Below, piece after piece: positions 36,129 through 39,168 of a DNA stretch of 64,000 nucleotides; within the stretch, counting starts at the first letter, position 1; each line of letters begins with the position of its first letter. The stretch lies in assembly GCF_007748035.1 (NCBI RefSeq), contig NZ_CP036278.1, positions 5,828,001-5,892,000 of the forward strand, given 5' to 3'. This DNA comes from Aeoliella mucimassa. Its GTDB lineage: Bacteria > Planctomycetota > Planctomycetia > Pirellulales > Lacipirellulaceae. The position numbers and the translations under genes are program-made. A model generated the notes under the pieces. The model made no database searches and was not told where the DNA came from. It was given only the letters and a program-made list of their open reading frames with translations.

Positions 36129-36234
36129 GCCCAAGTGCCAGAAAAAACGCGCCGAGACCGGCTGAAAACGGTACAGTTACAGACTAAACTGGAGGTTTTG
36201 GACCTCGCTGCCCGTTCTCCAAGGCATTGGCACC

Positions 36235-39168
36235 ATGCGCGTACGCACCCTGACGCTGGCAAATCTCACGTTCCTCGGCTGTCTGACCCTGTGGGGGCTG
36301 GCACCCGCTGTTGCGCAGGAGGGGGAGCCCGCGGCTCCGCCGGCGGCCGAAGCACCGGAACAAGCGGAGCAGCCCGAGCAACCCGAAGCCCCACCAGCCG
36401 AAGAGCCGAAAGCCGAGCCGCAGCCGGAAACTCCCCAGCCCGAGCAGCCGAAGGCGGAAGAGCCGAAGCCTGAGGAACCAAAAACTGAGACTCCGGCGGA
36501 AGAACCCAAGGCGGAGACTCCTGCCGAACCGGCCCAGCCCGAAGAGGGGATGAAGCAAGAGTCGGCTCCCGAAGAACCAAAAGCCGAAGAACCAAAAGCC
36601 GAAGAACCAAAAGCCGAAGAACCAAAGGCTGAAGAACCAAAGGCTGAAGAACCAAAGGCTGAAGAACCAAAGGCTGAAGAGCCCAAGACGGAGCAACCTC
36701 CCGCTGAGGAACCAAAAGCAGAAGAACCTCCTGCCGAACTGCCGGCTGAGGTCACGCTGACCAAGTACGTCACGCTGCCGATGGTAGGCATCTACGGTCG
36801 GGCGACGGTGCACATCGACCCGGTTGATTCGGCCATCGCTCATGGCACCTTCACGATGCCGAAGCCTGGCGACGACCTCACCGCAGGCGATGGTCGCGAG
36901 GTGAAATGGCGCGAGGCCACTTCGGCCGACGATGGGCTGCTGTCGACTCGCTCGATCCGCGGCGGCTACGCATGTGCCGAGTTCGAATCACCGGTCGCAG
37001 GTGTCATGCTGCTCGAAGCAACCGGGCATGCGACCGTCTACGTGAACGGCCTGCCGGTGGCTGGCGACCCTTACGCTTATGGCGACTTCAAGGTGCCGGT
37101 CGAAGTCGTAAAAGGCATCAACACGTTTGTGTTCCATGTGGCCCAAGGCGAACTGCGAGCCAAGCTCGTGCGGCCCGAAACCAAGGTGGCCTTGTCGTCG
37201 TCGCGACATACGTTGCCGTCGCTGGTGAAGAGCGAGAAGGCTACCAAAGTGTGGGCTGCGGTCACCGTTGCCAACCAGCAGGGCGAACCCCTCGCCAGCG
37301 CCAAGCTCGAAGCCCAACTCGACGGGCAGCCAGCTTCCAGCACCTCGATTGCCTGGCTCGATGCGGCCAGTTTGCGGGGCTGCCCGGTGGAGATCGAAGT
37401 GCCTGCGGGGCTCGATAAAAGCGTGGCCGAACTCACCCTTCGCGTGAAGCAGGGGGACCAGGTTTTGGCCGAACAGCAATACGAACTGGCGGTCGTGAAG
37501 GCCGACGCATTGCAAACCCACACCTATCGCAGCCGAGTGGATGGCAGCGTGCAGTCGTACGTTGTCGTGCCAGCGACGACCACGTCGGCCACCACGCAAA
37601 CCGTATCGAACAACGACAAGGGCAATTCGGCCCTGGCCGCGATTGTTGCCTTGCACACCGACGGCATGACCGCCCAAGACTACGCGGGACTCTTCCGGGC
37701 GAAGACGTGGGCGCACCTGATCGTCCCCAGCGGCCGCGGCATGTACCCCCTCGACTGGGAAGACTGGTCGCGGATCGACGCCAGCGAAGCATTGGCCGAC
37801 GCCCGCACGAAGTGGGACATCGACGACGAACGAATCTACGCTAGCGGGCATGGCATGGGAGGGCATGGCGCACTAGTGCTGGCCACGACCGAGCCCGATA
37901 CCTTCGCCGGCGTGGCGACCACCGCCGCCTGGCCGAGCCTCTGGACCTACGGCGGTGGCATGCCCGACTACCGCGATCCTTCGCCGGTTCAGGAAATGCT
38001 ACTAAGGGCGGCTTCGCCGAGCGATACGCTGGCCCACTTGAAAAACCTGACCGGCAGTGGAGTCTATCTGGCTCACGGCGCGGACGACGATCAGATCGAT
38101 CCCGGTCAAAGCCGACTCGTCGCAAAAGAGCTGGCCAACTGGCACAACGATTTTGCGTTCCACGAACTCTCGGGCAAAGGCAACTGGTGGGGTCCCGAAA
38201 CGGTCGACTCGGCCGAAGCGATGCAGTTTCTCGCCGCGCGGCAACGCGATAGTTCGAAGGTTACCAAGGTAATACTCACCACGGCCGACCTCGGCACGGT
38301 TGCCACCAGCCACTGGCTGACGATCGCCGCCCAACAAGAGCAGTTCGCCGAGAGCAGTATCGAGATTGAACTGAAGCAACAACCGCTGGCGTTTGTCGGC
38401 ACAACGAAGAACGTTAAACGCATCACGATCGATAAGTCGGCTGTTCCGCCGCGGAAGCCGTTTGTCGTGCGACTCGACGATACGAAGTCGGTACCGTTTG
38501 CTGGCATGCCCGCCAGCGGCCAGGTATGGCTCGAGAAGGTCGGCGACCAATGGATGCGGCGCACCTCGCCGAAAGACTCGGACAAGTCGCCCCAGCGCTA
38601 TGGCGGCATGAAGCAAGTGTTCGATCATAACGTGCTGCTGGTGTATGGCACCATTGGCAACGACGAGGAAAACGCTTGGTCGCGGGCCAAAGCGCACTAC
38701 GACGCCGAGACGTTCGCCTACCGCGCTGGGGGAGCCCTCGAAGTGATTCCCGACACCGAGTTCAATGCCGATACCACCAAGGACCGCAACGTGGTGATCT
38801 ATGGCAACGTCGATTCGAATCGCGCCTGGGCGATGCTCATGTCGAGCTCGCCAGTGCAGGTGCGACGCGGCCGCCTGACGTTTGGCATCCGCCCCGAGCA
38901 GGGGGATGACCTCGGTCTGATCGTCGTGCGTCCCCGCAGCGGCAGCAACACTCGGCTGGTAGCCGCCGTGAGCGGCACCGGTGCGAAAGGCATGCGACTC
39001 ACCAACCGGCTGCGATACTTCTGGGCCGGCGTGGCCTATCCCGATTGGCTATTGCTGGGGCCCCAAGCTCTAGAGAATGGCGACCCCAGCATTCGTGCCG
39101 CGGGTTACTTCGGTGAAGACTGGGACGTGGAAGAAGCCGACGTCGCCTGGCGCGACCTGGCCCTGTAA
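36235..39168 (+). CDS. Large secreted protein: EEPKA repeat plus esterase-like domain with lost triad
   Basis: A 977-residue protein. Residues 1-27 are a signal peptide (LTFLGCLTLWGLAPAVAQ). Residues 28-180 are a disordered Glu/Pro/Lys/Ala linker that includes seven copies of EEPKA. Residues about 190-470 are beta-rich, possibly jelly-roll. Residues about 470-680 follow the alpha/beta hydrolase plan of esterase-D-like proteins. There the nucleophile elbow reads GHGMGGHG with Gly540 where Ser is expected, and the His position reads GKGNWWG with Asn650; the GADDDQIDPGQSR acidic loop is kept. Catalysis by the usual triad is therefore unlikely. The last 300 residues have no recognised domain. It probably serves as a surface binding protein. 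Confidence 0.82.
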   Translation: MRVRTLTLANLTFLGCLTLWGLAPAVAQEGEPAAPPAAEAPEQAEQPEQPEAPPAEEPKAEPQPETPQPEQPKAEEPKPEEPKTETPAEEPKAETPAEPAQPEEGMKQESAPEEPKAEEPKAEEPKAEEPKAEEPKAEEPKAEEPKAEEPKTEQPPAEEPKAEEPPAELPAEVTLTKYVTLPMVGIYGRATVHIDPVDSAIAHGTFTMPKPGDDLTAGDGREVKWREATSADDGLLSTRSIRGGYACAEFESPVAGVMLLEATGHATVYVNGLPVAGDPYAYGDFKVPVEVVKGINTFVFHVAQGELRAKLVRPETKVALSSSRHTLPSLVKSEKATKVWAAVTVANQQGEPLASAKLEAQLDGQPASSTSIAWLDAASLRGCPVEIEVPAGLDKSVAELTLRVKQGDQVLAEQQYELAVVKADALQTHTYRSRVDGSVQSYVVVPATTTSATTQTVSNNDKGNSALAAIVALHTDGMTAQDYAGLFRAKTWAHLIVPSGRGMYPLDWEDWSRIDASEALADARTKWDIDDERIYASGHGMGGHGALVLATTEPDTFAGVATTAAWPSLWTYGGGMPDYRDPSPVQEMLLRAASPSDTLAHLKNLTGSGVYLAHGADDDQIDPGQSRLVAKELANWHNDFAFHELSGKGNWWGPETVDSAEAMQFLAARQRDSSKVTKVILTTADLGTVATSHWLTIAAQQEQFAESSIEIELKQQPLAFVGTTKNVKRITIDKSAVPPRKPFVVRLDDTKSVPFAGMPASGQVWLEKVGDQWMRRTSPKDSDKSPQRYGGMKQVFDHNVLLVYGTIGNDEENAWSRAKAHYDAETFAYRAGGALEVIPDTEFNADTTKDRNVVIYGNVDSNRAWAMLMSSSPVQVRRGRLTFGIRPEQGDDLGLIVVRPRSGSNTRLVAAVSGTGAKGMRLTNRLRYFWAGVAYPDWLLLGPQALENGDPSIRAAGYFGEDWDVEEADVAWRDLAL
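36571..36690 (+). repeat. 15-bp coding tandem repeat (EEPKA units)
   Basis: GAAGAACCAAAAGCC and its variant GAAGAACCAAAGGCT are repeated head to tail seven times from 36571 to 36675, followed by an eighth, degenerate copy. The first three copies carry the AAAGCC form and the next four the AAGGCT form, which suggests two rounds of unit duplication. Copy number may vary between strains. Confidence 0.9.

Follow-up and report, generated by a model that had tools for sequence, protein, structure and literature searches.

DPP10 and DPP6 are inactive S9B peptidases that serve as subunits of Kv4 channels (PMC4350108). In the alpha/beta-hydrolase domain of DPP10, the catalytic serine is replaced by glycine in an otherwise intact nucleophile elbow (GKGYGG, as compared to GHGMGG in the protein described below), and the inactive protein has been retained for another role (PMC4350108). 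DPP10 is the closest precedent for the persistence of a protein of the kind considered here. There are also differences: DPP10 and DPP6 are transmembrane proteins with a beta-propeller, whereas the flanking domains of our protein are of another kind, and DPP10 has kept its His and Asp, whereas our protein has also lost the His, with losses that are staggered over genera. Among solved structures, the best match to the hydrolase fold is LC-Est1C (PDB 3wyd), the C-terminal esterase domain of LC-Est1, in which the elbow reads GHSMGG with the serine present.

The window analysed here is a stretch of 64,000 nucleotides from a genome that consists of a single contig of 6,608,792 bases, and it encodes a multi-domain protein, hereafter the window protein, with a core that comprises residues 177-977 (Table 1). 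The protein scored 28.7 bits against the esterase model PF00756 of the alpha/beta hydrolases (cut-off 22) and, marginally, 23.2 bits against the prolyl oligopeptidase S9 model PF00326 (cut-off 22.6). An N-terminal beta-propeller is typical of the prolyl oligopeptidase S9 family; the N-terminal part of the window model is all beta (DSSP of the whole-chain model), and beta-glucuronidase and beta-galactosidase are among the whole-chain Foldseek matches, at low TM-scores. The window protein resembles models for PHB depolymerases and S-formylglutathione hydrolases locally, around the elbow, and it falls far under the curated cut-offs (NF050058, 37.6 of 150 bits; TIGR01840, 25.8 of 107.85 bits). In the sequence-only reading of this locus the protein was called esterase-D-like, which is a loose description: the score against TIGR02821 (S-formylglutathione hydrolase/esterase D) was 24.8 bits with a cut-off of 281.7, and structure prediction instead led to LC-Est1C as the best match. 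The window hydrolase aligns to 3wyd_B over 182 residues (Z 24.7, rmsd 1.9, 25% identity), and LC-Est1C is also matched by phmmer (8.6e-08). The AlphaFold2 models of the cores are confident for both the window protein (pLDDT 94.8) and the intact relative L017 (pLDDT 95.0), with a pTM of 0.94 in both cases, and the window model has the alpha/beta-hydrolase fold.

Judging from its sequence, the window protein is probably secreted. Residues 13-16 (FLGC) form a weak lipobox-like motif, and because of this motif a lipid anchor is possible. The sequence-only reading had the hydrolase displayed on a long EEPKA stalk, a hypothetical arrangement; the E/P/A/K-rich repeat is real, a 15-base tandem array of 10.7 copies, and it is part of a linker that follows the signal-peptide-like start. 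The array was absent from the 20 relatives with N-termini that were compared, in which the same region consists of other stretches, often A/P/E-rich and of variable length. The codon pattern of the repeat probably accounts for the open frames that run through it in antisense. Downstream of the linker, the N-terminal all-beta domain appears to be jelly-roll-like and the following beta-sandwich to be Ig-like.

Table 1. Coordinates of the window gene, its parts and associated features. Positions are those of the window, except where a locus of a relative is given.
Feature	Coordinates	Strand	Basis or remark
Putative pseudo-esterase ORF, 977 aa	36235..39168	+	ATG start; PF00756 and PF00326 matches
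Signal-peptide-like N-terminus, approximately residues 1-28, FLGC at 13-16	36235..36318	+	by eye
E/P/A/K-rich linker, residues 29-176	36319..36762	+	EEPKA array within 36569-36728
N-terminal all-beta domain, residues 177-330, boundary approximate	36763..37224	+	DSSP of model m18fa91b5b82e
Beta-sandwich, residues 331-422	37225..37500	+	predicted model and conservation; lowest conservation of all parts
Alpha/beta-hydrolase domain lacking the Ser and His of the triad, residues 423-672 (model 247-496)	37501..38250	+	3wyd_B match
Gly540 codon GGC, nucleophile position (GHGMGG)	37852..37854	+	alignment
Asp618 codon GAC, catalytic-acid position, retained	38086..38088	+	alignment
Asn650 codon AAC, catalytic-His position (GKGNWW)	38182..38184	+	alignment
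C-terminal mixed alpha/beta domain, residues 673-977	38251..39165	+	model; conserved in intact and degenerate rows
Antisense open frames, approximately 150-220 codons, through the EEPKA repeat	36177-36843	-	
Tandem M14 carboxypeptidase-like pair	L163 3549-7323; L164 10322-14156; L165 3662-7512; L167 10638-14449		
Two adjacent hydrophobic proteins downstream of the gene	L162 10468-12150; L163 10187-11885		related genes in L166

To compare the catalytic triad, we aligned 93 distinct members (the window protein and 92 relatives), for each of which 600 or more of the 792 model positions were covered; ten matches with less than 600 positions were left out and near-identical segments were counted once. 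The rows were drawn from the matches listed for the order (43 of 396 genomes matched) and the phylum (85 of 392), up to 30 loci each. Relatives in named genomes, also among the matches listed, were found by the alignment-based scan, whereas a single-protein scan of the named genomes found no relatives. Among the loci fetched, Ser-Asp-His was present in 77 of the 93 rows and the triad was degenerate in 16. Ser and Asp were recovered from all 77 intact rows, and the histidine from its column in 75; in the other two (L034, L035), which were counted as intact, it is shifted by one column (GGSHFW) so that the columns read S-D-F. Intact full-length relatives, such as L017, L118 and the Dyadobacter and Aestuariivivens proteins, are 28-40% identical to the window core in the structure alignments, which cover 85 of the 93 rows.

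Of the three residues expected in an active serine esterase, the window protein has the aspartate (Asp618), with Gly540 in the nucleophile column and Asn650 in the histidine column. The sequence-only reading had placed a glycine at the nucleophile elbow and an asparagine at the usual His site, and the alignment agrees with both; its statement that two triad members were lost while the fold was preserved is well supported by the confident model and by the relatives. All 16 degenerate proteins lack Ser or His or both, and the combination of missing catalytic residues of the parent family and an absence common to orthologues would fit a pseudoenzyme. Every one of the 16 belongs to the bacterial family of the window protein, which we infer to be the Lacipirellulaceae. 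In the window's genus, the three other genomes searched have Gly-Asp-Asn (two) or Ala-Asp-Asn (one), i.e., an asparagine each time and a glycine in two cases out of three. The combination is Gly-Asp-Ala in genus g2 (one row), Ser-Asp-Asn in g3 (two rows) and Gly-Asp-His in g6 (one row), where the two Trp that follow the His are missing. In g4 (four rows), g5 (one) and g8 (three), all three triad residues have been lost, and the loop of the His is either deleted or altered beyond recognition. Altogether, Ser is retained in 2, Asp in 8 and His in 1 of the 16 degenerate rows. No account of this clade was found in titles or abstract openings of the open-licence PMC literature.

A sequencing error can be ruled out, since three more genomes of the genus have the same losses. 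Likewise, the 16 degenerate rows are not pseudogenes: all are open at full length and have no internal stops. An active copy elsewhere in the same genome was also ruled out, as no second full-length copy was found in the window genome, where the next matches have E-values of 6.9e-5 or worse. The profile matched 19 of the 43 genomes of the family, of which 16 hold a degenerate copy, G158 an intact one (L017), G174 intact copies only, and G198 a distant partial match; neither a degenerate nor an intact orthologue was found in 26 of the 43, many of them drafts. The intact copies in G174 (L030, L059; genus g8) group with Bacteroidota proteins, which suggests transfer or contamination, and one match on a second contig of this genome holds a counted TAA.

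Phylogenetic analysis with the triad neighbourhoods dropped places the 16 degenerate rows in one clade (SH-aLRT 99), with the intact L017 beside it. When only columns of the N- and C-terminal domains were used (89 of the 93 rows, without L134, L121, L124 and L104), the 16 rows still formed one clade with a support of 89, which rules out that the grouping is an artefact of a fast hydrolase domain; L017 is no longer a clear sister in this tree. The serine is encoded by TCN in 77 of the 79 Ser-bearing rows, and g3 has retained it as TCG, a codon that disfavours a regain of Ser in this genus. The alanine codon is GCG in both L013, the first branch of the window's genus, and L024. Because a change from TCN to GGN takes two base changes, several separate losses of Ser are favoured. 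Ser and His were lost four times each if never regained, as compared to two changes each under plain parsimony. Ser has persisted without His in g3 and His without Ser in g6, which makes a single fixed order of loss unlikely.

Genes in the vicinity were also compared. The neighbours in the window are an AP_endonuc_2 TIM barrel upstream and a GDPD downstream; within approximately 8 kb, relatives of these were seen in 2 of the 3 regions from other genomes of the genus and in 0 of 16 other regions, and the neighbours were rejected as a functional clue. Two M14 genes (assigned by PF00246 in the G095 pair) are located directly upstream of the gene in G095 and G131 of the window's genus, in G006 (g2) and in G158, which carries the intact L017. 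According to the alignment, the second M14 gene retains HANE, SYHN and NEL in all four genomes, while the first lacks them in all four; we take these motifs to be the M14 zinc ligands and catalytic Glu. D/N-rich DxDxDG-like stretches are present in both genes. The pair was found in 4 of the 43 family genomes, each time at this gene, and at 5 of the 65 loci of relatives, with two of the five representing the same contig. Relatives of the second M14 gene were found in 34 of the 396 genomes of the order, the four included, and in many cases a second, weaker match is located within a few kb.

Two adjacent hydrophobic proteins, probably multi-pass membrane proteins, are encoded downstream of the gene in L162 and L163, which represent two genomes of the window's genus; the L163 pair has no Pfam match, and no match to the pair was found in positions 24001-52000 of the window. 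Of 20 chosen neighbours of intact relatives, some are GH29 fucosidases, GH92, GH20, a sulfatase, an arabinofuranosidase or a TonB receptor, which hints at glycan degradation as the role of the active family. The 20 also contain unrelated proteins (topoisomerase, phosphoglucose isomerase, asparaginase). In the Bacteroidota, the intact relatives L113, L116, L132 and L103 are located near genes for GH29 fucosidases, GH92, GH20 or sulfatases.

We also compared the rates of evolution of the domains. Scaled to the remainder of the tree, the hydrolase has evolved about twice as fast over the clade as the N- and C-terminal domains. In a comparison of 52 of the 93 rows with the triad regions removed from the hydrolase, the length of the clade relative to the rest of the tree was 0.648 (0.551-0.760) for the hydrolase and 0.308 (0.286-0.338) for the N- and C-terminal domains combined (medians of 50 bootstraps). 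The stem length was 0.0176 (0.011-0.028) for the hydrolase versus 0.0051 (0.0025-0.0081) for the combined domains, with no such excess in the intact L017 (0.0200 versus 0.0234). With all 93 rows, the ratio was 0.337 for the hydrolase, 0.158 for the N-terminal domain, 0.182 for the beta-sandwich and 0.161 for the C-terminal domain. The mean pairwise identity of the hydrolase was 0.404 in the clade and 0.559 in the intact rows (60 of 77), as compared to 0.446 versus 0.370 for the N-terminal and 0.452 versus 0.411 for the C-terminal domain. We also counted how many of the columns with a conservation of 90% or more in the reference rows have been lost from the clade: 33 of 63 in the hydrolase (triad columns included), 1 of 13 in the N-terminal domain, 1 of 2 in the beta-sandwich, and 3 of 30 in the C-terminal domain (Fisher p 6.3e-06, with columns treated as independent). 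The corresponding hydrolase losses in four intact control clades were 9/69, 0/61, 2/62 and 0/61. The control with 9/69 lost (p 0.026) is a mostly Bacteroidota clade of similar length that includes two G174 rows, and the hydrolase domain can thus drift in an intact clade too, if less so.

How the protein has been maintained can be explained in several ways. The sequence-only reading proposed selection for binding rather than catalysis, in which case the hydrolase pocket itself would have become a site selected for ligand binding. The predicted fold is retained, the hydrolase has a dN/dS below 1, and in the three pairs from the window's genus its dN (0.29-0.31) is similar to that of the N-terminal (0.23-0.34) and C-terminal (0.23-0.30) domains, whereas it is the lowest of the three domains in three intact pairs. 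This similarity indicates that the hydrolase has lost its extra constraint, and with it its special status, so that it is now under about the same constraint as the adjacent domains; a repurposed pocket would fit this pattern too. A block of residues (H474, R501, W508, E509, W511, D515, E518 and H544) is moreover at least 90% conserved in both intact and degenerate rows. However, this block is equally kept in the intact rows and is hence no new feature, the hydrolase is where the constraint fell over the clade, and triad replacements that differ by genus, together with the altered His loop in g4, g5 and g8, would be hard to accommodate in one common pocket. We consider pocket binding possible but on balance unlikely.

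The gene may alternatively be on its way out, decaying under relaxed constraint after the loss of a pathway and having no present function. Such decay would agree with the 26 family genomes in which no orthologue was found and with the upstream M14 pair, for which no match to either gene was found in the window genome and which was not found in G119 either; also, the hydrolase dN/dS is 0.12-0.39 in six degenerate pairs as compared to 0.03-0.10 in three intact pairs. Evidence against it comes from the full-length, stop-free frames, from the conserved columns retained in the flanking domains and from the spread of the clade over seven genus codes, where members from genera other than the window's are 32-43% identical to the window protein. 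In addition, all 18 domain comparisons among the six degenerate pairs gave dN/dS values below 1 (range 0.05-0.47; several pairs approach saturation at synonymous sites, and the three genus pairs are not independent). We therefore consider decay quite improbable. We find it harder still to believe that the protein is an enzyme in which catalysis has moved to other hydrolase residues or sits in the C-terminal domain. Six polar residues of the latter (K784, E812, D823, R830, D840, N862) are at least 90% conserved in both groups, and Ser/Thr residues common within the window's genus, e.g., S537 (or T), S568, S596 and S626, make a genus-specific substitute nucleophile conceivable from sequence. Yet the only invariant Ser over the 16 proteins in residues 423-672 is S433, which is located ahead of the conserved H474 and is retained in the intact rows as well (T430 is either Ser or Thr), there is no invariant Cys in the same segment, and the Pfam search gave no match and thus no enzyme family for residues 673-977.

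We favour, with moderate confidence, the explanation that the window protein is a secreted pseudo-esterase that has been retained mainly for its flanking domains, with the dead hydrolase serving as a folded scaffold; the protein would then probably do something other than catalysis. An ancestor within the family would have been a multi-domain enzyme in which a Ser-Asp-His hydrolase was flanked by N-terminal beta domains on one side and by a conserved alpha/beta domain at the C-terminus on the other. Along the stem branch of the clade, the hydrolase would have lost the extra constraint imposed by catalysis, after which Ser, His and, in three genera, Asp would have been lost several times in parallel, with the outcome in the window's genus that Ser was replaced by Ala or Gly and His by Asn while Asp was retained. 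The whole chain is still maintained, most likely through selection on a function of the N- and C-terminal domains, which is probably to bind a glycan or a partner outside the cytoplasm.

A more far-reaching version of this account is tentative and rather doubtful. In this one planctomycete family, a secreted esterase would have become a non-catalytic adaptor that has endured. Constraint on the hydrolase would have fallen first, on the stem, to be followed by independent erasure of the triad in four or more lineages. Where they adjoin the gene, as in some genomes, the dead M14-like protein and the motif-intact M14 protein would suggest an extracellular assembly that consists partly of dead hydrolases, with the C-terminal domain perhaps being the working part.

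A single clade thus displays several stages of pseudoenzyme evolution together: an intact relative, proteins that have lost His and kept Ser, one that has lost Ser and kept His, an Ala intermediate, and proteins in which all three residues are lost. Because these stages occur side by side, the order of events is testable, in particular whether the drop in constraint preceded the first catalytic loss. The comparison also indicates two uncharacterised extracellular domains as the conserved working parts of a family that occurs in several phyla and that would otherwise take the name of its hydrolase.
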